This document shows, in pieces, positions 23,878 to 41,967 of a stretch of DNA of 64,000 bases. Positions within the stretch are counted from its first letter, which is position 1. Each line of letters starts with the position of its first letter. A model generated the notes under the pieces. The model had not been told where the DNA came from, ran no database searches, and saw only the letters and a list, made by a program, of their open reading frames with translations. The DNA lies in NCBI GenBank assembly GCA_902779125.1, contig CACZAC010000002.1, positions 62,001-126,000 of the forward strand, written 5' to 3'. The DNA is from an uncultured Bacteroidales bacterium. Its GTDB lineage: Bacteria; Bacteroidota; Bacteroidia; Bacteroidales; Muribaculaceae. The translations under genes were made by a program, and so were the position numbers.

Positions 23878-26800
23878 TCATCTTAGCACCTTGAAGGTCG
23901 AGCTACTGCCATCACTGTAACGGGTAACAACGATGTTCACGCCCTCAAACGGGGTTTCGCTTTCCATACCCATGATGTTGTAGTAGCTGACGCTGACAAC
24001 CTGCTTGGCGTCTGTTACATTCTTCACAGTGGTGGGAGTAGGACGACCGCTGGGCAAGTCGGCAGGCGATACGCCGAAGCTGCCGTCGGGCGCAGCACCA
24101 GGACCCCTGCGAGGACCGCCATAGTTCCTGTCATTGCGTGTGATAATCACGTGGAACACGTAAGGCTCGCCCACCTGAAGTGCATCGGGATTCTCGTTGG
24201 TGATAGGACTACCATAGGAAGGATTGTTCTCAGCGTCCAATCCAAGCCTATTCCAATCCCAAGTGTGAACATTGAACGAACCACTCAGGTCATAACCGTT
24301 GATTGAATAACCGTCTCTTTCCAGTACATCAAAGCGGTCATTACCCATCCAGACAGCCCATACTTGAGCAATCTCCTGAACCTTAGGATTCATGAAGAAG
24401 ATGCTCTTGTTGGATACTGGCGATTGGGGACCAGGTTCGGCACCGTCACCGTAGGGAGCATTCAGATTCTCCTTCAGGAAGTTGGCAGGCGTGTAGTGGT
24501 TGTAGTAATAGATACCGTCACCATCATTCTCAGCATAATTGCCGTCATAGCCGGGATAACCCTGAACGGGATTCTCGTCCACCTTGATGGGCGATTCAGT
24601 CAACTTGATGGTGTAGTTCAGGTCATCGATGTAGTAACCCTTGACTGTAGCACTCATCAACTTGCGGCTCTCGAAGTCAAACGCGCTCACATTGTTCAGA
24701 CCGCTGAAGTCGAGAACGACCCAGTTGCTCTGATCCCAATCACGGGTCTGCAAGCCCAAGACATCTTTCACATAGTCGATTTGACCATCAACGATGCTGG
24801 TCTTGTCAATCGAGACATTGCCCTGGTCTTTAGCCCAAAGCTGGTTGATACCCTTCTGCGGATTGACAATAGCCCAAACACCAATCAGCTCATCGCTCAC
24901 GAGTACCTGCTTATTGCCCTCAACAGGCTCAACGGGCGTCTCGTTAGACTCGATATAAGCCAGCGGGGTTGCTTCCAGACCATACAGGTAAACATCCTCG
25001 TTGAGCGAGGCATCACTGTAGGTCGAGAATACACGGCCCTTAGCATAGTAGCGCAGGGTGCGGTTGGTACCGTCATAGTTGAACATGATGGTAGCGGGAT
25101 TGCCGTTATCCTGGGCGACGCTCACGCTGGCCTCGCTGTAAGTCGAGGTGGCGGCAGCAGTCTTCAGGTTGGCATTGTCGTTGGTGGTAACTACCAGATA
25201 GCCGGTGTTGTCACCGTTGATGTTCTTGAAGTAGTAGCGGCCGGCATTGGCTTTCTCCAGCACAAACTGGGCAAGCTCGTCGTTGCCGTAAACTTTCTCC
25301 TTGGTGTCATCAACAAACATCACACCGACCGAACCGCGGTTGTTCTCGTTCTGAGTAGTGCTCAGACCCATATTGGCCTGCTTGTTGACAATGACATAGA
25401 CATTGCCCTCCTGGGGCGCGGTCTTCACCAGGTCAAACACTACACTGTTCTTCTTGACGAAGGTGTAGGTGCAGGTCACGGGATTGCTCCACAGGGTCGT
25501 GATTACATTGCCCTGATCGTCCTTCACCTCCAGATAGGAGATGGCGGTCACGGTCGTGGTCTCGGTAATCGCATCATCACCCGTCAAGGTAATCTCGCCG
25601 TCGGTGACAACGGTGCCGTTCTCCAGGGTGGGAACTTCACCATTGAGCGTGTAGAGCGTTACGGTGCCAGGATCACTCTCCTCGTTGGTCGAGATGGTCA
25701 CATCTTCACTCTCATTACCGGTGACAATCTCAATCACTTGGCTCTCAGGTGTGATGACGGGATCCTTGATACCGATAAACTTGTAGTCGGCCTCAACGGT
25801 TTCTGAATGCATCATGTCGCCATAGGTCGAAGGCAACTCGGCATAGGCCTCGACATGGGTGTCGCTGTTGACAATGAACGGGCCAATGAACTCTGCCCAG
25901 TCGTCCATGTCATCGGTCTTGTAGTAGATGGTGGGCGTAACAGCGCCATTCCACTCGGGAGTCTCGACGGTGATGTCAACCACCTGCTGGGTGGTGCACT
26001 GGTCGTTAGACGCGGGCGTGATTACGGGCTTGTAAACCCACAGGAAGTCAAGAGGACAAATCTCGAAGGCCGGATCGTAAGGCTTGTAGTAGTCCACGAT
26101 GCCATAGACATCGAAGGTTGCGCCCTTAGCCTGCTTCTCATCAAAGAAGGCCTGGTCATAGTCACCCAGATGGTTGATGACATCATTGTGGTTATTATAA
26201 GAGCAGGTACCTGCACTCCAGCGATAGAACTTGTCATAGTAGTAAGCATCAGCGGTTCCGTCATTAATCAGACCAGTGTGCTTAGGATCACTAGCACTAT
26301 AGTCCTGAACATTGCGCAGTGTTGTATTGCGCAAGTGGACGTAATGTCCCCAAGAGTTGCTGCCATCGGCAGTACCAGCGACAATCACAGCATTGGTAAT
26401 CTCATCGGGAAGGATTTCACTATTACCCAGAGAGGTAGCCGGCCATGAGGTTACCTCATGGTTACCAGTACCCAGCTGGATATGGAAGTTGTTCTCCCAA
26501 ATATTGGTCACACCTGCAATTTCACTACCATCAAGCCAGTCACCCATCTCGAAGATGTGGTAGCCATGAGTGTCGCGCTTACCGAAGTAAACACAGGCAT
26601 AGTCGGTGTTGTCACGCAGATAGCAGTACTCTGCAAACTGGCCATTGTTGGTATAGGTTGAGTGGTAAACCACCTGAACAGGATTGACAAATGTAGCAGA
26701 AACACCGGTAGGACAATTGTCATTGAAGTCCTTCAGGTTCTGGTAAACATGACTGCCGCCCTGGAAAGGCAGGATGGTGTAGTAACCCTCGCTGATAGTG

Positions 26801-29800
26801 CTGGCATGGTCACCGATGTAGGCAATCGCCTTCACGCGGTAACTGTTGCCCACGGTCATCTGGTAGGGTTCACTGTAGTGAGTCGAGGACTTCGTGGGAT
26901 CGCTCACACTGCTGGGCGGGGTTGTTCCGCTCACCTGCTCAATCACGTAGTAGATATCGGCGTTGGCAGTGTTGGTAGCAATCTCCAGCGTCTGGTCACC
27001 GTAGTAGGTGCCGCTGTAACCGCCATCTTTACCCTCCAGCGGCGAGAAGAACGGTGCATTAACATTGATTACCTTCTCGGCATAGGTATAGCTGGCAACA
27101 TCAACAGCACTGGGCACGTTATCATCGTTATAGGCAATGGCCTTAACGGTAGCCTGGTCACCCAAACTAGCGAAGGTCAACTCGAACGGGCCTTCATACA
27201 GGGTGCCGTTCGACGAGCTGGGCTCGCTGCCATCGATGGTGTAATAAACAGTTGCATCAACAGGGTTGCAGCCGATGACAACCGTCAGAGTGGGATTATA
27301 AACCTCACGCGATGCGGGACGAATGGTCACCTTAGGAGCAATCCAGGTGTAAACCACCTCAGCGGGTGCACTCACATTGTCCTCGTCATCGACAGCGACA
27401 GCCTTGATGGTCGTGGGACCGTTAGCGTTATAGTGTACCGCAAACGTTCCCTCATACGGGGTGCTGCTGCTCGTAGGATCACTGCCATCAGTGGTGTAAT
27501 AGACGGTGGTACCGTCCTCAGCAGTAATAGTCACATCCTGATGCTCGGTATACTCACCAGTAGCGGGAGTAATCTCAGGAGCCATGACTGCAGGATGCAG
27601 CACGTAGAGATAGGCAGAAACGCCAGTGTTATTCGTATAGAGACGGAACGGACCACGGTCGGCTAACTGGGTATTGTAACGTAATTCACGTTCACAGGTA
27701 GTCAAGCCATAACCACTGCCAGAGCTAGGAGTTTGCCATTCATAGCCACTCGAGGCGTTATTATAAAAGCCCACACCTGTATCATCATTGGTTGACTCCA
27801 AATAACCTTGGGTGGCTTTCAGCGTCCAATTATCCTTAGTGCCACCAAGCGTGAAGACTATAGCATCGGTGTTGGCAATGTCAACAACTTGGTTCTGAGT
27901 TCGCCATGCCACATTAACACCAGAGCCAAAGTAATTATTGTTGCTTGAATATGTACCATTGAATGCAACAGGAGTAGCGCCCTCATAGACGATGACGTAC
28001 TTCTCGCCAGCTTTAATCTGGCTCTCGTCGGTCACCTTCTCGTAGAGGGTCTCACCCTTGGGTTGACGGGTGTAAGTCTCAGAAACCGTTGCACTGGTAT
28101 AGGTGTTGCCACCGGTAGTAAGAGTGGCGCGAGCCATCACGGTAACGGAACTGTTCACCTGTCCAATAGTGATAGTAATGCCATCAGTATAGGTCTGCCA
28201 AGTCGTACCGTTATCAAGGCTATACTCAATGGTTGCACCAGCCACATTTGCAGTGATGGTGACAGGCTCGCTCATGACACTGCCCACAAAGTTGCAGCTA
28301 GCGGGGCTGATGGTCACGGTCAGCGGCTCACGGGTAGCGTTGACGGTAACGGTAACATCGGCAGTGCCAGCACTCGACAGCGTGATGCTTGCCGTCTCGT
28401 CGGCACCCTGTCCATTATAGGTAACAGTCACCTCAACATTACCGGCAAGAGCAGCCTCTTTGCTGATGCTGTTGGTCGAGAGCGAGAAGCCCTTGGCCTG
28501 GTCCTCGGCGCTCAACGTCAGCGTCACACCCTCGCTCAAGTTGCGGCCACCCACAGTAAAGGTGTTGCTACCTTGAGCTTCTCCAGCAGCCAACTCGATG
28601 GAAACAGTAGTCGGATTAGCTAAAATAGCCGGAGTCGAGGACTCCTTATAAATATAGACGTATTGCTGAGTGGCTTTATAGCAAGCAAAACGATGCTGGT
28701 TATTGTTATTATTAAACTGGAGATACCTCTCGTTATAGGAATTTGACTGGATAGCAAACTTATTGCCTAAGTCATTACCATCGGCGTCCTTATCGCTGAT
28801 AGTCCATGTGTGGTTAGGATTGTCATAATACAGATTATTGGCATCATGTGCTGTAAGAACACCTTGACTGGTCAACAGCTTCCAATTGTCAGATTGACCT
28901 ATAAGGGTAACAGGAGCCATTGCTTCTTTCGAAGTGATGATACCGTTAGTCTCGGAAACACCTTCAACAGCAACACCAATATTATTTGATACGGGACCCA
29001 TGACGATGGCAGTCTCAGCATCATCATTCGACTTATAGACAATCAGATAAGTCTGGCCATGCACCAGGTCATTGATGTCAGTCAGCATCTCGTAGTCCTT
29101 GGCAACAAAAGGCGGAGTAATCAGATACTCTGCCGAGGCGACAGAGCTGGTCACGCCGTTGCTCACGGCCACAGCCTTCAAAGTAACAGACTCACTGATA
29201 CTGATGGCATTGCCGTCATAGAGGGTGCCGTTGTTCGCACTGGGTTCACTGCCGTCGGTGGTGTAATAGATAGCAGCACCCGGGGTAGCGCAAGTGATGG
29301 TCACCTCCTGAGTGCCCGAATAGGTACCCGATGCAAGAGAGATGACAGGTGCGTGTACCAGTGCCGAAATCGTGAACGTGTTATTATTCGGGTTGACTTG
29401 AACGGTATATTCACCAGGATTCAAGTGAATCGTAGCTGCATTAGATCCCGTATCGGCAGCATCAATCTGTACTGATTGACCAGTATAGTCGGTCTGTCCT
29501 TGCAGATACCACGGTCCATTTGAATCGGGACCGAACTTGGTTGATACAGCAGTAGATTCATCACCTTGACTCTTAGAGAAGAACATCCAGGAATCAGAGC
29601 CGCCATTTTCTCCCACGGCTGTGATATTCACCGAATAAGTCCCATCAGTGGTGTTTCTCGTCATCGCAACACCATTGGAGAAATCAAAATTGTTGATATG
29701 GTCAGCATCAACACCGATGTTACCAAAGAGGTAGATGGGACCCGTGTACAGGTAGTTCACGTCAACATTGGTGGTCACGTTACCACTGGCAAGCCTAATG

Positions 29801-31968
29801 ACGCCACTTTCACTCAGGGCATTACCATTATAGGTCACGGTAACAGTGCCATTAACAGCACCATTATAGCTGACGAAGCCCCAGCCTTGGTCACCAGAAA
29901 CGGTTCTCGAGAAGTTTCCAGACATCACATCCACACCCACGTTGCTAGGCAGGTTGGCACCAGTCACCGTAAAGTCACCAGTCCTACCGCCACTCGTATT
30001 ATCATCATTGATGTTAAGCGGGTTGGGCGATGCTGTCAACGACGGCGTGAGGTTGATGGTATAGGTTGCAGTAACCTGTTCACTGTCCTCATAGTCGGCC
30101 AACGTAGCCCAAGCCACGATAGTTGCGAACGAGTTGACATTAAGAGTAATGGGAGAAGTTCCGGTCTGCTCAGGACCACCATTATAAGTATAGTGAATCG
30201 TCGCGCCATCGGTAGGACACGAAATCGTCACCTCCTGTACCGAAGGATATTCACCAGGAGCAGGCGAGAACACAGGCGCCTCTACCGTAGGAGTAGTAGG
30301 TTCCTTAAAATAAATAGTGATGTATTGTATCTGTGCATTGTGGCTACTGGTAATCTTTAAAGAATATATATTACCTGCTGACTGATATTGATCAGCAATC
30401 AAGTATGTATTTGTACCAGTGGATCCAGTTGTGGCTGTACTGACTGCATTATCATCAACAAAAACATTCATTACTACTGATGAAGAAGCACCAGAATTAC
30501 CCTCCACTACAATCTTCTCAACATCTTTGTCAAATGCTGGGAACGTAATAGATGCTCCAGTTTTGCCAATCAACAAGCACTGGCTATTATAATAACGGTA
30601 TCCACCATTAGCTGCTAGAATAATGTCATAAGTTCCGTCGTTGTATGTGACTGTCGTTGTCGTAGAACTAGTGGGCAAAGCAGGTGTCCAATGGTCGTTT
30701 TCTCTAAAGTCGATAACGACATAGTCGGAGGGACTGCTAGGATTGATGGTGAATGACTGGCTGGTAACGATAGCACTGGGGGCCATGCCGTCCTTGGCAG
30801 CCAGCGCCTTGAGCGTACAACTCTCGGTAAGGGTAACCGAGCCGCCATTGGCGATGGTGCTGGTTGCTCTGCTGTTCACCACGGGGTCGTTGCCATCAGT
30901 TGTGTAATAGATGGTTGCCCCTTCTGTTGGACTGGTGATAGTCACCACAGCCGAGCCCGTAAACGTACCACCATCCGGATTAATCACCGGAGCGCCACAA
31001 GGCTCCAATGTACCGCCAGTATCTTGAACGTAAATCTGAGCCAAAGGCCCACTAGAAGTTAGCAGTCCAAAATAATTAGAGGAATTACATCTGAGGTAAC
31101 GTGATGCTTGATTATTCATAACGTTGCCATCAGCATCTATCGTCCATTTCAAGTCAGCACCATTTGGTGTTCCACTAGTGGCAAGACCATCTGAGGATGA
31201 TGAAGGACGTCCAAGGTATCTATTGTCGGGATTCAAGAATGTCCAGGCATTCGTTGACCCGCCAAGTGTAAATTCGACAACACCCGTGCCCCCGATATCC
31301 ACACGATTGTTATCAATGGATATACCTACAGGGGTACCATAGGAATTATTACTATTGATGGCGCCCATACCAAATGACGAAGCACCATTCTCTTTCACAA
31401 AGATATACTTTTTACCAGCAACAAGGTCACTAGTGCTGGTCACCTTACGATACCAATTAGGCTCAGAAGGAGAACTGTTTTCTTCATAAGTAACCGTGAA
31501 CTTGTTGACATAAACCGAGTTGGCGCTTGCCGAAACAGTAAGAACAAGATCACTGCCATTAAACGGTGTTTCCGTAAAGTTCAACACCGCATCTTTAAGA
31601 TTCGTGCCTCCGCTTGACGGTTTTACAATGGAGTAACTATCAAGCTGGGTGTTGCCCAATGAAGCAGTAAAAGTGCCACTTCCTTTACTTGAGTTTGTGC
31701 AATAAGTAAGCGTAATACCTGTTAACTTGTAGCTTGATGTAAAACCTCTTAGCGTTAAAGTCAGAGAATTACCGGCTGTAAGTTGGGCTCCTTGACCGCT
31801 TGTTAACTGGCTAGCTTGAGAATCAAGTAAGTAAGATACCCCTGACGGTTCACCAGCTAATGTGCCAGCATTCTTCGATGTCATTGTGAACGTCAGCGTT
31901 TCTGTTTCTGCCCAGCCGACGCCGAAGGCCAGTAGGGCAGTCAATAAAAAAGTAAGTAATTTCTTCAT
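23878..31968 (-). CDS. Giant secreted multidomain protein with chitobiase C-terminal-like repeats
   Basis: The protein has 2696 residues with signal peptide MKKLLTFLLTALLAFGVGWA. At least nine modules resemble the chitobiase/beta-hexosaminidase C-terminal domain (pattern APxIxPxxGxY...VTIT...YYTTDGSDP), near residues 330, 565, 870, 1215, 1460, 1545, 1635, 1975 and 2065. Four modules of about 150 residues start like YEKVTDESQIKAGEKYVIVY (near 155, 990, 1310, 2150). Two BACON/Ig-like modules lie near 640 and 1120, a SusE/F-like YLFGNIG module near 750, and an OB-fold-like module near 1755. The end (VVSVSYYNIMGMESETPFEG ... FKVLR) is a short type IX-type tail. The likely role is a surface adhesin or glycan-interacting scaffold. 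No enzyme domain was recognised. Confidence 0.85.
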   Translation of the reverse strand: MKKLLTFLLTALLAFGVGWAETETLTFTMTSKNAGTLAGEPSGVSYLLDSQASQLTSGQGAQLTAGNSLTLTLRGFTSSYKLTGITLTYCTNSSKGSGTFTASLGNTQLDSYSIVKPSSGGTNLKDAVLNFTETPFNGSDLVLTVSASANSVYVNKFTVTYEENSSPSEPNWYRKVTSTSDLVAGKKYIFVKENGASSFGMGAINSNNSYGTPVGISIDNNRVDIGGTGVVEFTLGGSTNAWTFLNPDNRYLGRPSSSSDGLATSGTPNGADLKWTIDADGNVMNNQASRYLRCNSSNYFGLLTSSGPLAQIYVQDTGGTLEPCGAPVINPDGGTFTGSAVVTITSPTEGATIYYTTDGNDPVVNSRATSTIANGGSVTLTESCTLKALAAKDGMAPSAIVTSQSFTINPSSPSDYVVIDFRENDHWTPALPTSSTTTTVTYNDGTYDIILAANGGYRYYNSQCLLIGKTGASITFPAFDKDVEKIVVEGNSGASSSVVMNVFVDDNAVSTATTGSTGTNTYLIADQYQSAGNIYSLKITSSHNAQIQYITIYFKEPTTPTVEAPVFSPAPGEYPSVQEVTISCPTDGATIHYTYNGGPEQTGTSPITLNVNSFATIVAWATLADYEDSEQVTATYTINLTPSLTASPNPLNINDDNTSGGRTGDFTVTGANLPSNVGVDVMSGNFSRTVSGDQGWGFVSYNGAVNGTVTVTYNGNALSESGVIRLASGNVTTNVDVNYLYTGPIYLFGNIGVDADHINNFDFSNGVAMTRNTTDGTYSVNITAVGENGGSDSWMFFSKSQGDESTAVSTKFGPDSNGPWYLQGQTDYTGQSVQIDAADTGSNAATIHLNPGEYTVQVNPNNNTFTISALVHAPVISLASGTYSGTQEVTITCATPGAAIYYTTDGSEPSANNGTLYDGNAISISESVTLKAVAVSNGVTSSVASAEYLITPPFVAKDYEMLTDINDLVHGQTYLIVYKSNDDAETAIVMGPVSNNIGVAVEGVSETNGIITSKEAMAPVTLIGQSDNWKLLTSQGVLTAHDANNLYYDNPNHTWTISDKDADGNDLGNKFAIQSNSYNERYLQFNNNNNQHRFACYKATQQYVYIYKESSTPAILANPTTVSIELAAGEAQGSNTFTVGGRNLSEGVTLTLSAEDQAKGFSLSTNSISKEAALAGNVEVTVTYNGQGADETASITLSSAGTADVTVTVNATREPLTVTISPASCNFVGSVMSEPVTITANVAGATIEYSLDNGTTWQTYTDGITITIGQVNSSVTVMARATLTTGGNTYTSATVSETYTRQPKGETLYEKVTDESQIKAGEKYVIVYEGATPVAFNGTYSSNNNYFGSGVNVAWRTQNQVVDIANTDAIVFTLGGTKDNWTLKATQGYLESTNDDTGVGFYNNASSGYEWQTPSSGSGYGLTTCERELRYNTQLADRGPFRLYTNNTGVSAYLYVLHPAVMAPEITPATGEYTEHQDVTITAEDGTTVYYTTDGSDPTSSSTPYEGTFAVHYNANGPTTIKAVAVDDEDNVSAPAEVVYTWIAPKVTIRPASREVYNPTLTVVIGCNPVDATVYYTIDGSEPSSSNGTLYEGPFELTFASLGDQATVKAIAYNDDNVPSAVDVASYTYAEKVINVNAPFFSPLEGKDGGYSGTYYGDQTLEIATNTANADIYYVIEQVSGTTPPSSVSDPTKSSTHYSEPYQMTVGNSYRVKAIAYIGDHASTISEGYYTILPFQGGSHVYQNLKDFNDNCPTGVSATFVNPVQVVYHSTYTNNGQFAEYCYLRDNTDYACVYFGKRDTHGYHIFEMGDWLDGSEIAGVTNIWENNFHIQLGTGNHEVTSWPATSLGNSEILPDEITNAVIVAGTADGSNSWGHYVHLRNTTLRNVQDYSASDPKHTGLINDGTADAYYYDKFYRWSAGTCSYNNHNDVINHLGDYDQAFFDEKQAKGATFDVYGIVDYYKPYDPAFEICPLDFLWVYKPVITPASNDQCTTQQVVDITVETPEWNGAVTPTIYYKTDDMDDWAEFIGPFIVNSDTHVEAYAELPSTYGDMMHSETVEADYKFIGIKDPVITPESQVIEIVTGNESEDVTISTNEESDPGTVTLYTLNGEVPTLENGTVVTDGEITLTGDDAITETTTVTAISYLEVKDDQGNVITTLWSNPVTCTYTFVKKNSVVFDLVKTAPQEGNVYVIVNKQANMGLSTTQNENNRGSVGVMFVDDTKEKVYGNDELAQFVLEKANAGRYYFKNINGDNTGYLVVTTNDNANLKTAAATSTYSEASVSVAQDNGNPATIMFNYDGTNRTLRYYAKGRVFSTYSDASLNEDVYLYGLEATPLAYIESNETPVEPVEGNKQVLVSDELIGVWAIVNPQKGINQLWAKDQGNVSIDKTSIVDGQIDYVKDVLGLQTRDWDQSNWVVLDFSGLNNVSAFDFESRKLMSATVKGYYIDDLNYTIKLTESPIKVDENPVQGYPGYDGNYAENDGDGIYYYNHYTPANFLKENLNAPYGDGAEPGPQSPVSNKSIFFMNPKVQEIAQVWAVWMGNDRFDVLERDGYSINGYDLSGSFNVHTWDWNRLGLDAENNPSYGSPITNENPDALQVGEPYVFHVIITRNDRNYGGPRRGPGAAPDGSFGVSPADLPSGRPTPTTVKNVTDAKQVVSVSYYNIMGMESETPFEGVNIVVTRYSDGSSSTFKVLR

Positions 31969-32375: not shown

Positions 32376-32628
32376 GGGACAGCACTCGACGCACTGGCCG
32401 TGGCAGGAGCCCCGGCATAGATTAACCCTGACACACGGGCAAGACAGAAAAGGGACAGCAGCGTAGACCAAGCCGTGGCAGGAGCCCCGGCATAGATTGA
32501 CCCTGACACACGGGCAAGACAGAAAAGGGACAGCACTCGACACACTGGCCGTGGCAGGAGCCCTGGCATAGAACGACCCTGACACACGGGCAAGACAGAA
32601 AGGGACGGCAGCGTTGACCATGCCGTGG
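32376..32628. repeat. Tandem 75-bp repeats with REP-like palindromes
   Basis: Units start at 32376, 32452 and 32527, with lengths 76, 75 and 75; a partial fourth unit starts at 32602. Each begins GGGACAGCA and ends near CACACGGGCAAGACAGAAA. Each full unit contains an imperfect palindrome GCCGTGGC-AGGA-GCCCCGGC (8-bp arms, 4-base loop, one mismatch; the third unit has GCCCTGGC). The partial unit carries the perfect form GCCGTGGC-TCCC-GCCACGGC at 32622-32641. Confidence 0.9.
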
Positions 32629-32727
32629 CTCCCGCCACGGCCACCACTAGGCAAGGAACACCTCCCGCCACGGCCACCACCAGGCAAGGAACATCTCCCG
32701 CCACGGCCACCGCAGGCAAGGGCGGCT
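32629..32727. repeat. Three tandem 33-bp repeats
   Basis: Units start at 32629, 32662 and 32695 with the pattern CTCCCGCCACGGCCACCACC then AGGCAAGGAACAT; the third degrades at its end. They continue directly from the palindrome at 32622-32641 and end about 10 bases before the transposase stop codon. There are no spacers between units, so this is not a CRISPR array. Confidence 0.9.
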
Positions 32728-32737
32728 CCCAACCGAG

Positions 32738-33718
32738 TTACTCCTGGGACTGGTTGCAGATAGCAGCGGCCATGTCGTTGAGTTGCCAGCATTGTTGCTG
32801 CTTGATGGTGCGACGGTCATTGTGGTGCTCCCAAGGGGCAAGCAATAACAAGCGGCCACGGGTGCAAGCGTCAAATCGCTTGCCTCCTGGCTTTGCCAAT
32901 GGAGCGAAGCCATTTTCTTGCAGGATGATGATGGGATAACCGTTTTCAAAGGCCGCCCTCATCACTGCCTTCTCTCCTGGGCTAATGCTGGGCGACACAA
33001 GGACAGCCCCATTAGCAGCACATGACAGAAAATAGCGTCGCGTGTCGTCAATTTCTTGGAGGGTTAATTTACGAGTACATTGCACTTGCAGTAACTGCGG
33101 TGCTCGCAAGAGGAACAGGTTTCCCAACGCGGCAAAAGTCAAACCAGCCACCTGGATACTACGTTGCACCTGAAAGTACTCAGGGTGATTACGTTTGATG
33201 GCCAAGCGGCGCGGATTGTCATCTAGATAGTCCATCATGCGCTGCAGGTGGTTTTTCCCTTCGAGGATACGGTCATTGTAGCCATCTTCCCACAAGATAT
33301 CGTCGAGGACATCAACCAGCCCTTGCTGCTTGAGCTGGCGGTACACCCGCGTGCATCCACCTTTATAACCATTGATAACTTGGCTCAGATGGCGGTCAAT
33401 CCTCTCTTTCACAAAGATGATGAAGTGCAGGTGATCGGGCATTAACTGCTGCGAAATGACAGCAACGGCTGGATAATGGAGGGTGATGGCGCCTAATTCG
33501 TCGAGAACCGCCTTGCCAAGCGGGGTTGGATGCATGATGGCAGGCTCACGCTCGCCATCGCCAGTGACGCACCCGAATAACGGACGACGCCCCTTAACGA
33601 CAAGTGTAACCATGTAGATGCATCGACCGTGATAGTCGTGCCCCACACGGCGCCGCTTCATCGACGGGATGGCTTCGCCAGCCCACTGCTTCTTGCCTTT
33701 GAACTGCTCTCTATCCAT
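32738..33718 (-). CDS. REP-associated tyrosine transposase (RAYT) with SLOG-like C-terminal domain
   Basis: The protein has 326 residues. Residues about 30-180 are a Y1 (HUH) nuclease domain: MPDHLHFIIF holds the metal-binding H96-x-H98 pair, and INGYKGGCTRVY supplies candidate catalytic tyrosines Y118 and Y126. Residues about 195-326 are not part of a usual RAYT. They contain NGAVLVSPSISPGEKAVMRA, then AFENGYPIIILQENGF, then KPGGKRFDACTRGRLLLLAP and WEHHNDRR. This pattern recalls the nucleotide-binding SLOG/DprA fold, a tentative assignment. I chose the ATG at 33718 because a promoter box lies 14 bases upstream; the open frame beyond it runs into repeat DNA. The protein should nick or join palindromic single-stranded DNA of the flanking repeats. 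Confidence 0.8.
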   Translation of the reverse strand: MDREQFKGKKQWAGEAIPSMKRRRVGHDYHGRCIYMVTLVVKGRRPLFGCVTGDGEREPAIMHPTPLGKAVLDELGAITLHYPAVAVISQQLMPDHLHFIIFVKERIDRHLSQVINGYKGGCTRVYRQLKQQGLVDVLDDILWEDGYNDRILEGKNHLQRMMDYLDDNPRRLAIKRNHPEYFQVQRSIQVAGLTFAALGNLFLLRAPQLLQVQCTRKLTLQEIDDTRRYFLSCAANGAVLVSPSISPGEKAVMRAAFENGYPIIILQENGFAPLAKPGGKRFDACTRGRLLLLAPWEHHNDRRTIKQQQCWQLNDMAAAICNQSQE

Positions 33719-33739: not shown

Positions 33740-33807
33740 GTGAAACCACTGCAGCCCAACAAGTAAAAACGGGAAAATCAACAGGAAAGACACAAGATTG
33801 CTACCAG

Positions 33808-33951
33808 GCCGTGGCAGGAGCCCCGGCATAGATTGACCCTGACACACGGACAAGAAAAAAAGGGACAGCAGGGTTGACTATGCCGTGGCTCCCGCCACGG
33901 CCACCACCAGGCAAGAAACATCTCCCGCCACGGCCACCGCAGGCAAGAGCG
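33808..33951. repeat. Upstream copy of the REP-like repeat module
   Basis: It repeats the 32376-32727 module in the same orientation but shorter: one imperfect palindrome (33808-33827, GCCGTGGC-AGGA-GCCCCGGC), the GATTGACCCTGACACACGG segment, and the perfect palindrome GCCGTGGC-TCCC-GCCACGGC (33882-33901). Two copies of the CTCCCGCCACGGCCACC unit follow. It ends within about five bases of the acyltransferase stop codon (33956-33958). Confidence 0.9.
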
Positions 33952-35062: not shown

Positions 35063-36334
35063 TCAGTCAATGATATCGAAGCCAGTGTAACGCTGCAGGG
35101 TGGCGGGGATGCGGATGCCCTCGGGCGTCTGGTTGTTCTCGAGCAATGCGGCTACGATGCGCGGCAGAGCGAGTGCCGAACCGTTGAGGGTGTGGCACAG
35201 GTGGGTCTTCTTGTCGTCGCCACGGTAGCGGCACTTGAGGCGGTTGGCCTGGTAGGTCTCGAAGTTGGAGACACTGCTCACCTCGAGCCAGCGTTGCTGG
35301 GCTGCCGACCACACCTCGAAGTCGAAGGTGATGGCACTGGTGAAACTCATGTCACCACCGCACAGGCGCAGGATGTGCCACGGCAGTTCCAGTTTCTCGA
35401 GCAGTCCCTGTACATGGTCCTTCATCTCCTCGAGAGCGGCATAAGAGTCCTCAGGCTTCTCGATGCGGACGATTTCGACCTTGTCGAACTGGTGCAGGCG
35501 GTTCAAGCCACGCACGTCCTTGCCATAGGAGCCAGCCTCGCGGCGGAAACATGCCGAGTAAGCACAATTCTTCTTGGGCAGTTCCTCCTGGGGGATGATG
35601 ACGTCACGGTACATGTTGGTCACGGGCACCTCGGCCGTGGGGATGAGGTAGAATTCGTCAAACTGGCAGTAGTACATCTGACCCTCCTTGTCAGGAAGCT
35701 GTCCCGTACCCAATCCAGAGGCCTCGTTTACCACGAGAGGCGGTTCTATCTCGGTATAGCCAGCCTTGCCAGCCTCGTCGAGGAAGAACTGAATCAGGGC
35801 ACGCTGCAAGCGTGCACCCTTGCCCACATACACGGGGAAACCTGCACCGGTAATCTTCACACCGAGGTCAAAGTCGATGAGATTATATTTCTTGGCCAGG
35901 TCCCAATGGGGCAAGGCATCCTCGGGCAGTTCGGGCATCTTGCCACCGGTCTTCTCGACCACGTTATCCTCGGCGGTCTTGCCCTCGGGGACGCCGCTGT
36001 AGGGGACGTTGGGAATGCCCAGCAGGAGCTGGGTAATCTCGTCCTGGGCGGCGCTGAGGTTGTCGTCAATCTTCTTGTTGGCGGTCTTGAGTTCGGCCAC
36101 TTGGGCCTTGACGTTTTCGGCCTCGTCACGGTTACCCTGCTTCATGAGGGCACCGATTTGTGCAGCCATTTTATTGAGCACAGCGGCGTTGTCGTCGCGT
36201 TGTTTCTGCAGTGCACGGCGCTGCTTATCCAGTTCCACGATGCGCATGATGTCCTCACGAGCGTCAAAGCACTTGACGGCAAGGCGGCGAATCACTTCCT
36301 CGGGGTCCTGGTTAATCAATTGTAATGTCAGCAT
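35063..36334 (-). CDS. serS: Seryl-tRNA synthetase
   Basis: The protein has 423 residues, typical of the family. The N-terminal ~110 residues form the antiparallel coiled-coil arm that binds the long variable arm of tRNA-Ser (IMRIVELDKQRRALQKQRDD, then AENVKAQVAELKTANKKIDD). The class II core includes YTEIEPPLVVNEASGLGTGQL, CFRREAGSYGKDVRGLNRLHQFDKVE (motif 2) and GSALALPRIVAALLENNQ (motif 3, with the conserved arginine). It charges tRNA-Ser in the cytoplasm. It reads in the same direction as the YqeY-like gene, 42 bases downstream of it. Confidence 0.98.
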   Translation of the reverse strand: MLTLQLINQDPEEVIRRLAVKCFDAREDIMRIVELDKQRRALQKQRDDNAAVLNKMAAQIGALMKQGNRDEAENVKAQVAELKTANKKIDDNLSAAQDEITQLLLGIPNVPYSGVPEGKTAEDNVVEKTGGKMPELPEDALPHWDLAKKYNLIDFDLGVKITGAGFPVYVGKGARLQRALIQFFLDEAGKAGYTEIEPPLVVNEASGLGTGQLPDKEGQMYYCQFDEFYLIPTAEVPVTNMYRDVIIPQEELPKKNCAYSACFRREAGSYGKDVRGLNRLHQFDKVEIVRIEKPEDSYAALEEMKDHVQGLLEKLELPWHILRLCGGDMSFTSAITFDFEVWSAAQQRWLEVSSVSNFETYQANRLKCRYRGDDKKTHLCHTLNGSALALPRIVAALLENNQTPEGIRIPATLQRYTGFDIID

Positions 36335-36376
36335 TTTTTATTTTTTGTTTCTAGTCCCTAGTTTCTGGTTGGTGTT

Positions 36377-36832
36377 TTAGTTCGCGGATAGAAGTTCTTT
36401 TACCTTGGCGCTGATGGCGCGACCCTCGGCACGTCCGGCAAGCTGCTTGGTAGCAATACCCATCACCTTGCCCATGTCCTTCATGCTGGTGGCGCCAACC
36501 TGCTCGATAATCGACTTGACATGGGCAGTGAGTTCCTCGTCATTCATCTGCTTGGGCAGGAACTCCTCGATGACGGCAGCCTGCAAGAGTTCCACATCAG
36601 CCAAATCCTGACGGTTCTGGTCGATGTAAATCTGGGCGCTCTCCTTGCGCTGTTTGGCCATGCGCACGAGCACCTTGAGGGCATTCTCATCACTGACCTC
36701 GCCGTTGTTGCCCGGTGCGGTCTTGATAATCAGGAACTCAGCCTTGATACCTCTGAGCGCCTCGAGCCGGCCCTTGTCATGAGCCTTCATGGCTTCCTTG
36801 ATGCCATTGTTTACTTGATCAAAGATACTCAT
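36377..36832 (-). CDS. GatB/YqeY domain-containing protein
   Basis: The protein has 151 residues and matches the YqeY family over its length: KEAMKAHDKGRLEALRGIKAE, VLVRMAKQRKESAQIYIDQNR, VIEEFLPKQMNDEELTAHVK, and KDMGKVMGIATKQLAGRAEG. The fold is the helical tail domain of GatB, the tRNA-dependent amidotransferase subunit. A free-standing copy probably binds tRNA, but its task is not established. It follows ftsZ by 26 bases on the same strand, a conserved neighbour at the end of the dcw cluster. Confidence 0.9.
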   Translation of the reverse strand: MSIFDQVNNGIKEAMKAHDKGRLEALRGIKAEFLIIKTAPGNNGEVSDENALKVLVRMAKQRKESAQIYIDQNRQDLADVELLQAAVIEEFLPKQMNDEELTAHVKSIIEQVGATSMKDMGKVMGIATKQLAGRAEGRAISAKVKELLSAN

Positions 36833-36858
36833 GTTGTAACTTGCTCGTTTACAGTGTT

Positions 36859-38250
36859 TTACTCACCAAAATTAATAGTCTGAGTGTCACCACCGCCACT
36901 GCGCTTGGGCGTCTTGGGCACCTCGACGGGCTTCTCCTGAGTAACAGCCTGCTGGCGTTCCTTGATGAGGTTGCGGAAGTCGGGTTTGCGCTTGTAGGTC
37001 GGCGTCTTCTCAATCATGTCGATGACATCGTCGTCGTCCATTTCCTCGGGGGTAAGCACGATGTAGCGGGCGCGGTTCTGGGCCAGGGCCTGCTTGGTGA
37101 TAGCCTCCTCGCCATATTCCTTAATCAGGCGTCCGCTGTTGTCGGTAACAGTGTTGGGTACCGAAATCGATTCGCGGCGCTGCGGAACATTCTGTACCGG
37201 AGCCTCCTTGTCAAGCGACACATTGAAACCGGCAGCCAGCACGGTCACCTTGATTTGCTCCTCCAGGTTCAGGTCGTGGGCAGTACCCCAGATGACATCA
37301 ACCTCCTGGTCGAAGTTGGCCATAAATTCCTGAATCTCGTTCAACTCCTTCATCAGCAGCGGTGAGCCACTGTTGGGATTGAAATAGACGTTCATCAAAA
37401 TCTTGCGGGAACCATAGACGTCACGGTTCTTGAGCAGCGGCGACTCCAGGGCATCCTCGATGGCCTTGGTCACACGTCGCTCACCAGTACCGTAACCCGA
37501 GCTGATGATGGCAGCACCACCATTGCGCAGAGTGGTATTCACATCGTTGAAGTCGAGGTTGATGACACCACGCACGGTAATCAGGTCACTGATGCTGCGG
37601 GCAGCAGTGGTCAAGGTATCATCGGCCTTACCAAACGCGTTGGTGAAGTCCAGGTCGCTGTAAATCTCGGTCAGGCGCTGGTTGTTGATGATGAGCAGGG
37701 CGTCAACATACTTGCCCATTTCATCGGCACCGGCAAGAGCCTTGAGAATCTTCTTGGGTCCCTCGAACAGGAACGGGATGGTCACGATACCGATGGTGAG
37801 CACGCCCTTCTCGTGGGCAATGCGAGCCACAACAGGCGCGGCTCCCGTACCGGTACCACCACCCATACCAGCGGTGATGAAGACCATCTTGGTGTCATCA
37901 TCAAAGAGGGCAGCGATTTCGCTCTCACTCTCCTCGGCGGCACGCTTGGCCGTCTCGGGAATATTACCGGCGCCCAGGCCGTGGGTCGTGTTGGGACCCA
38001 GCAGCACGCGGTTGGGAACCGGCGACTCGTTGAGCTGCTGGCGGTCGGTATTGAGGACGACAAACGAGACGCCCTCGATGTTCTGCATGTACATGTGATT
38101 GATGGCGTTGTTACCACCGCCACCGACGCCCATCACCTTGATGATGGTGCGGGTATTCTCCTTATCCTGGAATCCCGAGTCCTTATCCAGCGTGGACATA
38201 ATGTCGTGGCCACGGTCGTGCGACTCATTAAATGAAATCTTTTCTTCCAT
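36859..38250 (-). CDS. ftsZ: Cell division GTPase FtsZ
   Basis: The protein has 463 residues. A ~30-residue N-terminal extension precedes the core. The tubulin signature GGGTGTG is at 130-136, MGVGGGGNNAI near 40 begins the GTP-binding site, and the T7 loop is around LDFTNAFGKADDTL. A long variable linker is followed by a short conserved end (TQTINFGE). FtsZ polymerises at midcell into the Z ring that recruits the division machinery. It is last in the dcw cluster, after ftsA, and a 66-base gap before it could hold its own promoter. Confidence 0.98.
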   Translation of the reverse strand: MEEKISFNESHDRGHDIMSTLDKDSGFQDKENTRTIIKVMGVGGGGNNAINHMYMQNIEGVSFVVLNTDRQQLNESPVPNRVLLGPNTTHGLGAGNIPETAKRAAEESESEIAALFDDDTKMVFITAGMGGGTGTGAAPVVARIAHEKGVLTIGIVTIPFLFEGPKKILKALAGADEMGKYVDALLIINNQRLTEIYSDLDFTNAFGKADDTLTTAARSISDLITVRGVINLDFNDVNTTLRNGGAAIISSGYGTGERRVTKAIEDALESPLLKNRDVYGSRKILMNVYFNPNSGSPLLMKELNEIQEFMANFDQEVDVIWGTAHDLNLEEQIKVTVLAAGFNVSLDKEAPVQNVPQRRESISVPNTVTDNSGRLIKEYGEEAITKQALAQNRARYIVLTPEEMDDDDVIDMIEKTPTYKRKPDFRNLIKERQQAVTQEKPVEVPKTPKRSGGGDTQTINFGE

Positions 38251-38316
38251 ATATCTTATCGTTTTGTTTTTGTTCTTAATAATTTGGATGATAGTTTTCC
38301 AGACACGCCGGATAGT

Positions 38317-39639
38317 TTACTGATCGTCTTCCTCCTCGTCCTCGGACATAATGCGAGCGAAACGATCGGCCAGGCCCTTCATCCAACCCGGTTTCTTCTT
38401 CTCCCTTGCGGGTTTCTTGGGCTCCTCGGTTACCTCGGTCTGACGGGGCTCCTTGATATTGACATTACCACCCTCAAAGACAGGACCGTCCTCATACTTG
38501 TTGAGCTCAACGCAGGTCTCCCTGTCCTCAATCATTTCGGCAGCCTGGGCAAGAAGTGCAAACACTTCGATATACTCCATGCGGTTGATGCTCGAGTTGA
38601 GGATATTGATTGAAAGCGGGTTCTGTCCCATGCGCACTTTAATCTTGATGGTCTCTTCCATCTTCTGCTGCAAACCGCCCAGGTGTGCACCGCCACCAAT
38701 CAGGACGATGCTCTGGATATCATTGGAAGTCACACCTGCATCAGCCAGCTGCTGGTTGATATTGGCGATGATTTCACCGGTTCGCGCGCTGATGTAGTTG
38801 GCAGCTTCACGTGCATTGACACCCTCGATGACAACGTTGCTCACGTTGCTGGGGTCGAGCGGATTGTTGATGTTCTTCTTGACGTTCTCGGCAGTCTCCT
38901 CGAGCACGTTCATACCGTTCATCACGTCACGCGTGAGGTTGCGGCCACCCAGGGGCAGCGTGTTCAGGAAGATAAGCGCCTTGTTCTTGTAGATGGAGAC
39001 GGTTGTCGTCTCGGCACCCATATCCACGAGCATGCAACCCAGTTCACGGTCACTCTCGCTCAAAATCTGCTCGGCGACAGCCAGCGGGGTAACGATAAAG
39101 CCCTTGGCAGACACGCCGAATGTCATCAGTCGGTTCAGGTTGAGTTTGAGGGCGGGCTTAGCCACAATCAGGTTGACCTTGATTTTTATGGACGAACCAA
39201 ATTGTCCTGCGGGGTTCAGTGTATTCACCTTGTCAACATAGTAGGCGCGAGGCACGATGTCCACGGTATCGTGGTTCTTGATGGGGCTACTGCTTGCCTC
39301 GTGGATGATAAGGTCAATCAGGTCTTTGGTGATAGGCTTGGTGTTGTCAACGCTGCGGTTCACCTCGCTGACCATGCTGTGGAGCGAACGTCCGCTCACA
39401 CCCAGATATACCTGTGTGATGCGGCCATCGACCATGCCCTCGAGCGTCTTGAGGATATGATTGATGCTCGTCTTGATATTCTCCACATTCTGCACGATGC
39501 CATATCTCACGCTATTGAGATGCTTTTCTTCTTGCAGGTGTTTTACGCTCAAGTATCCAGCCGAAGTCTTCTCGGCAATAGCTCCGACAATTTTGGAGCT
39601 TCCGATTTCAAGTGCTACAATATATTGGTTCTTTTCCAT
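38317..39639 (-). CDS. ftsA: Cell division actin-like protein FtsA
   Basis: The protein has 440 residues. The actin-like ATPase begins MEKNQYIVALEIGSSKIVGA (phosphate 1 loop). The SHS2 (1C) region and LGCMLVDMGAETTTVSIYKN (phosphate 2) follow, then SIVLIGGGAHLGGLQQKMEE (adenosine motif). The C-terminus is a charged linker and an amphipathic basic helix (KKPGWMKGLADRFARIM), the membrane target sequence that tethers FtsZ filaments. I chose the ATG at 39639 because the conserved N-terminus starts there; the frame stays open 44 codons farther, into ftsQ. Confidence 0.95.
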   Translation of the reverse strand: MEKNQYIVALEIGSSKIVGAIAEKTSAGYLSVKHLQEEKHLNSVRYGIVQNVENIKTSINHILKTLEGMVDGRITQVYLGVSGRSLHSMVSEVNRSVDNTKPITKDLIDLIIHEASSSPIKNHDTVDIVPRAYYVDKVNTLNPAGQFGSSIKIKVNLIVAKPALKLNLNRLMTFGVSAKGFIVTPLAVAEQILSESDRELGCMLVDMGAETTTVSIYKNKALIFLNTLPLGGRNLTRDVMNGMNVLEETAENVKKNINNPLDPSNVSNVVIEGVNAREAANYISARTGEIIANINQQLADAGVTSNDIQSIVLIGGGAHLGGLQQKMEETIKIKVRMGQNPLSINILNSSINRMEYIEVFALLAQAAEMIEDRETCVELNKYEDGPVFEGGNVNIKEPRQTEVTEEPKKPAREKKKPGWMKGLADRFARIMSEDEEEDDQ

Positions 39640-39667
39640 AAAACTGATGAAATATTTTATTTGGTTG

Positions 39668-40588
39668 TTAATTACTCTTTTTGTTATTCTCTTGTTTTTT
39701 GTTCTCTTGGTCACGCTTGCCCTGATTATCCTGTTCGGGCTTGGATTCGTTCTGCTTGGCGCGATTGGCATCGGCTACCGAGCCCACGGTCATAGTCTCG
39801 ATGTCGGGCGCCTGCTCATCATCCTCAGGATCGTACTGGATAGACTGCTGTACTGCCTTGACGCGGCGGGTTGCCACAATCTGGTGGTTCCATTTCACCG
39901 AGATGGTGTCATAGGTCTCCCACCCTTTCTTGGGCATCACCTGGCGATAGAACTGCATGAGTTTGGCAAACTTGTTCTCAAAGCCATCGGCACTGCCGAT
40001 ATTGATAACATGGCCACTGATGTTGGGAACGATGATGATGTTGTTGGTGTCCTTGACACAATACATCGACACCAGTGAGTGCAACAACGAGTCATTCTCG
40101 ACATAGTTGATGAGCGGCAGCAGCCTCGTGGCAGGATACTTGCGGGTGAAGTGTCCCTGCACGACGGGCACATCGCTGTGGTAATACACATTGGCGGACA
40201 TGTGCTTGCCCGAGCGGTTCACATAGTAGGAACTCTCGCCGTCAAAGACCCTGAAAATGGGCACCAACTGGCTCACACGAATCAGCAGACGTCCATTCTG
40301 GCACTTGACGATATCAGCACTCTCGAGATAAGGCGAAAGCTTGAGTGCCTCCTCTATCTCGCTGGCATCGATGCTGCCCATACGCTTGCCCACAAGTTTG
40401 ATGCCTTGACTCTGCAGCTCATCGAGCACGCCCTGTGGCGTCACAAACGAAGTGCTGTCGGCATTGACGATTTCAACGTCAATCTGACTGCACACCTCGC
40501 CTTGAGACCTGTTGCGTGCCCAGACAATGCCTACCACCAGCATGATGGCCAGCACTGCCAAAATGATATTCTGTATCAGCCGTTTCAA
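39668..40588 (-). CDS. ftsQ: Cell division protein FtsQ/DivIB
   Basis: The protein has 306 residues. A short cytoplasmic start and one membrane span (IILAVLAIMLVVGIVWA, residues 8-24) precede a POTRA-like segment (VNADSTSFVTPQGVLDELQS ... GSIDASEIEEALKLSPYLES) and a beta domain. The C-terminal ~50 residues are hydrophilic (Asn/Lys/Gln-rich). FtsQ links the early and late division proteins in the periplasm. The start is TTG at 40588, inside the TTGA overlap with the murC stop; the first ATG is inside the membrane span and would destroy it. Confidence 0.88.
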   Translation of the reverse strand: MKRLIQNIILAVLAIMLVVGIVWARNRSQGEVCSQIDVEIVNADSTSFVTPQGVLDELQSQGIKLVGKRMGSIDASEIEEALKLSPYLESADIVKCQNGRLLIRVSQLVPIFRVFDGESSYYVNRSGKHMSANVYYHSDVPVVQGHFTRKYPATRLLPLINYVENDSLLHSLVSMYCVKDTNNIIIVPNISGHVINIGSADGFENKFAKLMQFYRQVMPKKGWETYDTISVKWNHQIVATRRVKAVQQSIQYDPEDDEQAPDIETMTVGSVADANRAKQNESKPEQDNQGKRDQENKKQENNKKSN

Positions 40589-41967
40589 TGCTTCTGTTTC
40601 TTGAATTCATCGCGTATTTCAGGCAGCAGATTGGCGATATCGCCAGCACCTGCCGTCAATAAGACGTCAAAATTACTCAAATGTATTGACTTAATCAAAT
40701 TTTCTTTCGAGTAAATGATTTTTTTTGCACTTGTTACCTTTTCCAGGATGATTTCACTGGTCACTCCGGGTATGGGTTCCTCGCGGGCGGGGTAAATGGG
40801 GAGCAGAATCACCTCATCGGCAAGCGACAGTGCCGATGCAAACTCGGGAGCAAAGTCACGCGTGCGCGTGTAGAGATGGGGCTGGAAAATCACCGTCAGG
40901 GTGCGGTCGGGATACAAATCACGCACCGACGAGATACTCGCGCGCAACTCACCAGGATGATGGGCATAGTCATCAATCATCACCTTACCATGGTCACCCG
41001 GCTCCTTGAGCCAGAACTCAAAACGACGCTTCGGACCCATGAACGTGGCAATGGCTTCTCGCATCACATCGCCAGGCACGTCAATCAATCGGCAAGCCGC
41101 CATAGCAGCAATGGCGTTCTCGATATTGATGGAAACAGGCACGCCCAGGTTGATGTCGCTAATCGTCTCCCACGGGGTCACCAGGTCAAAGATAATCTCT
41201 CCGTTGCCCTTGCGGATGTTGGCAGCGTGGAAGTCGCCCTCGTCGCGGCTATAGGTGTAAGTGGTCACCTGCTCGCCCACCCTGGGTTTCAGGGCCAATC
41301 CTGTGTGAATGATGAGTGAGCCGCCTGGTTGAATCAATTCAGTGAAATGGGCAAAACTCTCCAGGTAATTCTCGGCAGTGCCATAGATATCCAAATGGTC
41401 AGGGTCGGTCGAGGTCACAACAGCGATAAAGGGGCGCAGGTGATGGAACGAACGGTCAAACTCATCGGCCTCGATGACCGAATACGGACTCGTCGTTGAC
41501 AGCAAGAAATTGCTGTCGTAGTTGCGCAGCACTCCGCCCAGAAAGGCATTGCATCCCAGCGGAGAAGTGTGCAGGATATGGGCCGCCATACTCGATGTGG
41601 TAGTCTTTCCATGGGTACCGGCAAAACACAAGCCCTTGCTATGGGCAGTCACGACGCCCAACAATGCGGCACGCTTCACTACTTCAAAGCCGTTGGCACG
41701 GAAGTAGGTCAGTCCCTGATGGCTGTCGGGGACGGCAGGGGTATAGACTACCAGAGTGCGCTGCGGGTCGCGGCAGTAGTCTGGTATCAGGTTGGGGTCC
41801 TCGTCAAAGTCGATGTGAATACCCTCTTGCTGGAGCGCCCGTGTCAGGTCGCTCGGGGTGCGGTCATAGCCTGCCACACGCTTTCCTTTAGCAAGAAAAT
41901 AGCGTTCCAGGGCTGCCATCCCAATGCCCCCGGCACCGACAAAATACAATGAATCAAAATCTTTCAT
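40585..41967 (-). CDS. murC: UDP-N-acetylmuramate--L-alanine ligase
   Basis: The protein has 460 residues. Mur ligase motifs appear in order: the N-terminal Rossmann part FVGAGGIGMAALERYFLAKG, the ATP-binding P-loop FAGTHGKTTTSSMAA near 115, EADEFDRSFHHL, TSTDPDHLDIYG, and DDYAHHPGELRA near 335. It adds L-Ala to UDP-MurNAc, the first step of the stem peptide, in the cytoplasm. It follows murG and overlaps ftsQ by four bases. Confidence 0.97.
   Translation of the reverse strand: MKDFDSLYFVGAGGIGMAALERYFLAKGKRVAGYDRTPSDLTRALQQEGIHIDFDEDPNLIPDYCRDPQRTLVVYTPAVPDSHQGLTYFRANGFEVVKRAALLGVVTAHSKGLCFAGTHGKTTTSSMAAHILHTSPLGCNAFLGGVLRNYDSNFLLSTTSPYSVIEADEFDRSFHHLRPFIAVVTSTDPDHLDIYGTAENYLESFAHFTELIQPGGSLIIHTGLALKPRVGEQVTTYTYSRDEGDFHAANIRKGNGEIIFDLVTPWETISDINLGVPVSINIENAIAAMAACRLIDVPGDVMREAIATFMGPKRRFEFWLKEPGDHGKVMIDDYAHHPGELRASISSVRDLYPDRTLTVIFQPHLYTRTRDFAPEFASALSLADEVILLPIYPAREEPIPGVTSEIILEKVTSAKKIIYSKENLIKSIHLSNFDVLLTAGAGDIANLLPEIRDEFKKQKH

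Follow-up and report, generated by a model that had tools for sequence, protein, structure and literature searches.

Class 2 Y1 transposases, to which the RAYTs (TnpAREP) belong, are HUH nucleases with a Y---NP signature (PMC6006769). HUH enzymes use lagging-strand single-stranded DNA (ssDNA; PMC6006769), and the spreading of repetitive extragenic palindromic (REP) sequences has been called poorly understood (PMC8266576). DprA-like domains are known from transformation (PMC4489622, PMC4066776) and from toxin-antitoxin pairs (PMC4670107, PMC12593503). Here we describe P0001, a RAYT-type Y1/HUH protein with a predicted DprA-like C-terminal domain, encoded in a 64,000-nucleotide stretch (hereafter the window) of an uncultured Bacteroidales bacterium (Muribaculaceae; assembly GCA_902779125.1, contig CACZAC010000002.1, positions 62,001-126,000). 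RAYTs with other C-terminal additions are already known (PMC6006769). We found no paper in the open literature that joins RAYT/HUH with DprA, a description elsewhere being possible, and the word DprA is absent from the main texts of the 2018 RAYT classification (PMC6006769), PMC2817692 and PMC8266576. The gene and its parts are as follows.

32738..33718, minus strand: open reading frame (ORF) of P0001, 326 amino acids, including the stop codon (32738-32740)
33185..33637, minus strand: Y1/HUH nuclease domain, residues ~28-178 (Pfam, Foldseek, VIA)
33425..33433, minus strand: HLH (HUH) motif, residues 96-98
33212..33229, minus strand: YLDDNP, with the catalytic tyrosine Y164 and N168 (N168-P169)
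32741..33175, minus strand: predicted DprA-like Rossmann (SLOG) domain, residues 182-326, ~145 amino acids (structure model, Foldseek, VIA, hhalign)
33071..33073, minus strand: R216, aligned to R115 of S. pneumoniae DprA (SpDprA) and R52 of H. pylori DprA (HpDprA), which contact ssDNA (PMC4066776)
32969..32998, minus strand: loop VSPSISPGEK, residues 241-250, aligned with DprA VSGxAxGID
32864..32893, minus strand: KPGGKRFDAC, residues 276-285, in the region of the DprA YP motif

The reading frame and the nuclease with H96-x-H98, which an earlier note had drawn from the sequence alone, both hold. Pfam Y1_Tnp matches P0001 (E 1.7e-6), its nuclease part has the Y1 transposase fold (Foldseek and VIA), and H96, H98, Y164 and N168, the last two within the Y---NP signature, are invariant in 61/61 aligned long homologues. 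The score against NCBIfam NF047646 is 43.8 bits, below the equivalog cut-off of 80, and judged by this family P0001 would be a diverged RAYT member at best. Several diverged RAYT copies occur in the same genome.

The earlier note had also taken the remainder of the protein for an extra domain of DprA/SLOG type, an assignment that is supported by the predicted fold and by profile and sequence comparison; the domain contains both quoted motifs, GAVLVSPSISPGEKA and GGKRFDACTRGRLLLLAP, and begins at about residue 182 instead of about 195. The lines of evidence are as follows. First, the predicted structure of the extension is a Rossmann domain of the DprA core type, and among solved structures DprA-family proteins match it best, with ShosA at the top (Foldseek, VIA); this model supports the view of residues 182-326 as a shortened DprA-like Rossmann domain. 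Second, hhalign of the extension profile gave 74.4% against 24 Bacteroidota DprAs, collinear across 102 columns, and 0.6% against 11 LOG proteins, which is not a LOG-type match. (The first profile comprised 44 long forms, 32 from the window and the loci and 12 from the best 120 of 3104 homologues; the DprA profile comprised 24 of 31 chosen frames, the remainder being too short or, in one case, interrupted by a stop; the LOG profile comprised 11 of 25 loci, the other 14 having been missed by the motif filter.) LOG/TRPM/ThsA-type SLOG proteins are ruled out as nearest kin by profile comparison and fold matches; the structures 1wek and 1weh, titled conserved hypothetical protein, are presumably LOG-like. 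For single sequences the evidence is weaker, though it points the same way, and PDB profile searches reached DprA only at E 0.01-0.06. Third, when 395 genomes of the phylum were scanned with the extension profile (up to ten candidates scored per genome), three matched, namely the own genome (five genes) and two others (E 1.2e-8 and 2.5e-6). The two other matches are a 662-amino-acid protein with two DprA repeats (L235, G570:C86:51500-55000; PsyrA by PADLOC) and a plain DprA; neither is fused to Y1, so that no fusion was found in the other 394 genomes. BLASTP of the window gene's domain against the 662-amino-acid protein gave E 2e-7 (25% over 130), hhalign of the extension against the second repeat of eight PsyrA-like tandem proteins gave 92.8%, and the PsyrA-like tandem DprA protein is the nearest non-fused sequence relative found. 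This second repeat and the fusion domain have in common the altered motif SP...E where DprA has SG...D. On these grounds a PsyrA-like repeat, and not DprA proper, may be the source of the fusion domain.

At the residue level, G199, L204, E249, P277, L291 and N314 are identical in 61/61 rows, R216 stands at the ssDNA-contacting arginine in the alignment, and the DprA positions retained are GN..LL, V...R and S....E/D. P277 is not placed exactly on the YP proline by the alignments and is not counted among them. The alignment of the extension to SpDprA (3uqz_C) spans residues 70..218, where P0001 ends; in the whole-model run the 3uqz_A row extends to 283, with 132 versus 129 residues aligned and thus at most a few end residues beyond 218. 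The acidic triad (EDE, 235/243/265) and the dimer zone (249-275) of SpDprA (PMC4066776) belong to a tail (SpDprA 235-275) that is absent from P0001, and DprA-like dimerisation and RecA loading are therefore not expected. There is no SAM or winged-helix part before or after the DprA-like domain. Taken together, residues and model suggest a shortened DprA core for which ssDNA contact is plausible.

The extension belongs to a large family. P0001 has 3104 homologues at E up to 1e-3, the best 120 of which measure 315-364 amino acids. In a survey of 295 genomes of the order (up to seven candidates scored per genome), the whole-protein profile matched in 155. In 12 genomes, among them the own one with five, at least 27 matches reached into the extra domain, and among the matches listed all others stop at or before profile position 191. 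The extension is thus not universal among RAYTs; neither of the two findings that the earlier note had named as refuting its reading, an extension common to all RAYTs or a fold that is not Rossmann-like, was obtained. At 51 loci from named genomes, nearly all metagenome-assembled, the long forms come from Prevotellaceae, Muribaculaceae and other Bacteroidales, with further ones in bins named Kiritimatiellae, Victivallales and Akkermansia; the short forms come from Clostridia and others. The length after the Y1 domain falls into two classes, 0-31 and 144-288 amino acids, the former including the split L027 and the contig-end L036, with the truncated L040 (100) in between. L027 is itself a split long RAYT gene whose nuclease and DprA-like parts lie in different frames. 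Five of the Kiritimatiellae/Victivallales-type fusions (L022, L023, L024, L033 and L041) carry similar-looking further tails past the DprA-like domain, e.g. GDGAAEINYRG in L041.

A tree of 89 Y1 domains places 61 long forms and one short row on one side with a support of 100 in the Shimodaira-Hasegawa-like approximate likelihood ratio test (SH-aLRT); it is a quick tree with SH-aLRT as its only support, a midpoint root and several long branches. Left out of it were L139 (a duplicate of the window gene), L027 (two ORFs), L036 and L040 (cut short) and L053-L058 (short or distant). The short row, L194 (G199:C35), is a decayed long form, since an extra-domain remnant (E 6.7e-15) sits in another frame. 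Several independent fusions are unneeded to account for this tree, which has two label changes, one of them explained by L194. The simplest reading of these sequences, likely but not proven, is one ancient acquisition followed by spread to other phyla, or mis-binned contigs. In 8 of 10 pairs, the ratio of non-synonymous to synonymous rates (dN/dS) was 0.062-0.108 in the Y1 part and 0.041-0.101 in the extra domain, in pairs that overlap in members and with some dS values near saturation. On this evidence the extra domain appears about as constrained as the nuclease; its conservation across a large family, together with purifying selection in these pairs, marks the extension as more than chance.

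Concerning mobile carriers, no match was found in 50,697 phage records; one of 72,556 plasmids matched, by Y1 only and over 48%, so that no plasmid matched at full length; and in a weak test on viral contigs, a single peptide pattern matched 19 times, with no case confirmed. In a domain-only search, some of the best 120 of 3197 matches measure 149-242 amino acids, mostly on contigs below 5 kb, and two such short matches, P0123 and P0130, lie on contigs of 15 and 22 kb; these stand-alone copies are perhaps gene fragments.

The window gene is flanked by REP/REPIN-type hairpins, as expected of a RAYT:

32397..32417, plus strand: REP-like hairpin
32472..32492, plus strand: REP-like hairpin
32547..32642, both strands: REPIN-like inverted hairpin pair (32548-32568 plus, 32621-32641 minus), downstream of the gene
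33807..33902, both strands: REPIN-like inverted hairpin pair (33808-33828 plus, 33881-33901 minus), upstream of the gene

These six hairpins of the form GCCGTGGC-NGGA-GCC.CGGC compare with 0.02 expected in the window, and the two inverted pairs, of ~95 nucleotides each, look like REPINs. The upstream pair belongs to a 132-nucleotide direct repeat that is 91% identical to 32547-32678, and the strand of 33800-33945 folds with a z of -5.7. With up to three mismatches allowed, the genome holds 52 hairpin matches (one place counted on both strands) versus 6 for the reversed pattern, and the copies show paired stem changes (T-A to C-G) that preserve the fold. At least two other RAYT paralogues in the genome carry different hairpins. 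Of 39 long loci, 12 have repeats common to both flanks, and 9 of these 12 belong to the 11 loci of the window gene's own clade (window gene included); the controls reached a maximum score of 12 (29 far-flank) and a 99th percentile of 17 with a maximum of 56 (302 cross-locus), the latter maximum probably coming from near relatives. With other flank limits, flanking repeats occur at 11 of 60 long loci (window gene excluded) and 4 of 29 short ones, so they do not mark the long form. The two counts differ because one measured flanks from the start codon, the other from the preceding stop, and because the window gene is absent from the second; L009, L026 and L030 pass in the count of 12 only, and L148, L220 and L226, which are outside the 39, in that of 11. 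The flank repeats of L026 and L030 are unlike REP hairpins in appearance. Another long RAYT gene, L004 (G000:C43), has a perfect palindrome, TGTTGCGTTGTCAACGCAACA, at 2082-2115 and 2576-2609, one copy lying within the gene between its two matched halves and the second beside the gene, as if a REP had inserted into a RAYT gene.

Contig C21 of the same genome (G000:C21; L214, L215, L216, L231, L232) carries 27 of the 52 hairpin matches on 2.6% of the bases. These hairpins, mostly of a sister type, lie at 3.8-65 kb and change strand a single time, with 12/12 on the minus strand at 3.8-21.6 kb and 15/15 on the plus strand at 39-65 kb. Counted as 12 clusters, this orientation has a probability by chance of ~5e-4. 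It is independent of the strand of neighbouring frames for the 20 of 27 hairpins examined, several of which lie in predicted, possibly spurious frames. The strand switch adjoins the minimum of the cumulative GC skew (~36-39 kb, flat up to 45 kb). If this minimum is an origin, the hairpins lie in the lagging-strand template, as would be expected for HUH enzymes that use ssDNA of the lagging strand; the pattern likely reflects replication-strand-specific insertion, and the hairpins form a dense REP cluster beside what may be an origin. Off C21, hairpin strand agrees with the local skew sign at 5 of 6 loci, the exception being at 28.5 kb on C3, and the window's own hairpins point in both directions. 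The 87 kb of C21 contain 25 DnaA boxes with at most one mismatch, one of them perfect, in no clear cluster, and no long RAYT; the tie to the window gene is therefore hairpin likeness alone.

From sequence kinship, the predicted fold, a distribution fitting one acquisition, purifying selection and the hairpin pairs flanking the window gene, we infer ssDNA binding, nicking of the flanking hairpins and strand holding. The Y1 domain would recognise and nick a REP hairpin exposed in single-stranded form, probably in the template of the lagging strand; the fused DprA-like domain would keep its grip on the freed strand for rejoining or annealing. We consider it somewhat probable that the DprA-like domain binds the ssDNA that the nuclease would cut at REP hairpins. 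More speculatively, and with clear reservations, P0001 could represent a REP transposase lineage with a built-in DprA-type chaperone, in which a REPIN freed on the lagging strand is held and annealed into a new site without RecA. RecA loading is not part of the proposal, the dimer/RecA part of DprA being missing. Of the links suggested by the earlier note, ssDNA handling is plausible, while natural transformation and nucleotide signalling find no support here. The missing dimer/RecA part and the separate DprA encoded in the same genome (G000:C50:9411-10031) both speak against a role in transformation.

Several observations weigh against ssDNA binding by a DprA-like domain. It is as a dimer that DprA binds ssDNA, and P0001 lacks the mapped dimer region. 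Position 216 is R in just 46 of 61 rows (S in 12, H in 3), and several DprA invariants appear altered, in the alignment VSG at its G and AH at its H, and by eye RNR at its arginines. P0001 has no Pfam or NCBIfam DprA match at E up to 10 and stays below the PF02481 cut-off, and a hidden Markov model built from the 24 Bacteroidota DprAs matched no fusion ORF at E 1e-3. Flanking repeats are found at a minority of long loci and at short ones too (12/39, 11/60 and 4/29). Finally, two pairs lend no help on selection, L023-L024, which are nearly identical with very few changes (dN/dS 0.48 and 0.53), and the window gene versus L010, where the C-terminal part is saturated. As to family detection in general, Pfam finds DprA in 1 of 44 family members (E 6.5e-4) and the Y1 part in 34 of 44, and an NCBIfam scan of the C-terminal part alone gave chance-level matches only.

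The main rival explanation casts the DprA-like domain as an inbuilt module for restraint or docking, which would hold a genotoxic DNA enzyme, here the fused nickase, in check, by analogy with the DprA-like antitoxins PsyrA/RqlI and ShosA. The kinship described above favours it, a PsyrA-like tandem protein being the nearest non-fused relative and ShosA the top fold, and RqlI carries a region of DprA homology and counteracts the toxicity of RqlH (PMC4670107). However, short RAYTs exist without such a domain, PADLOC PsyrA matches just 1 of 44 members (E 1.9e-4), P0001 matches neither PsyrA nor ShosA in PADLOC at E 1e-3 or up to 1, and no toxin-like partner occurs among the five Pfam-scanned neighbours of the window gene. 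We judge such a restraint unlikely, if worth keeping in mind. That the domain senses a nucleotide ligand in the manner of signalling SLOG proteins, and thereby turns nuclease activity on or off, agrees with its SLOG superfamily fold and with the invariance of E249, P277 and N314, as for pocket residues; we find this quite improbable. Very doubtful is a widened recognition of REP/REPIN hairpins, e.g. by gripping the second hairpin of a pair: it would suit the inverted pairs flanking the window gene and the REP DNA contacts of the E. coli TnpAREP C-terminal tail (PMC8266576), but the hairpins diverge strongly among paralogues and relatives whereas the domain is about as conserved as the nuclease. 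That the extension is an ordinary RAYT part and not a DprA-like fold, as C-terminal additions of other RAYT classes (PMC6006769), and perhaps L082 in the same genome, might have suggested, is refuted beyond reasonable doubt by the fold and sequence results, the order survey and the two sharp length classes. L082 (G000:C40:36019-36375), a 270-amino-acid frame outside the fusion family, represents a second type of Y1 protein encoded by this genome and looks, by eye, like a subclass 2.1 RAYT with a helix-turn-helix-like end.

Among the neighbours of the window gene, Pfam identified the five that were scanned as an acyltransferase, SerRS, YqeY, FtsZ and a chitobiase-domain protein. The last (23878-31968, minus strand; 2696 amino acids) has repeated chitobiase C-terminal/Fn3-associated domains and ends ~400 bases below the RAYT hairpin array. 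On the other side, 35063-41967 (minus strand) encodes SerRS, YqeY and FtsZ, then, by their look, FtsA, FtsQ-like and MurC frames, so that the RAYT gene lies close to a division gene cluster.

A natural fusion of a nickase to a module of a known ssDNA-binding kind offers a direct, testable lead on REP spread; if the more speculative reading of a built-in chaperone is true, REP spread and single-strand annealing would be the work of one enzyme. The fusion adds a DNA-mobility setting to those of DprA-like domains, and it makes sense of the second half of a large homologue group (the 3104 proteins) that Pfam rarely sees as DprA. Compared with known systems, P0001 resembles RAYT/TnpAREP (class 2 TnpAY1; E. 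coli TnpAREP, PDB 4er8) in its HUH motif, Y---NP, Y1 fold, adjacent hairpin pairs, the presence of several diverged genomic copies and the lack of a full-length match in the phage, plasmid and viral-contig searches, and differs from it by the added ~145-amino-acid DprA-like domain. With DprA/Smf (HpDprA, 4ljk; SpDprA, 3uqz) it has in common the predicted Rossmann core through SpDprA residue 218; unlike them, it has no SAM or winged-helix part, ends before the dimer and RecA strands, and is fused to a nuclease. ShosA and PsyrA/RqlI occur as proteins of their own, paired with a toxin, whereas the P0001 domain is fused to a Y1 nuclease. Lastly, RAYT subclass 2.1 (DnaA-like/helix-turn-helix C-terminus) is likewise a RAYT plus an added C-terminal domain, which is described as of the helix-turn-helix type (PMC6006769), in contrast to the predicted Rossmann fold of the P0001 addition.
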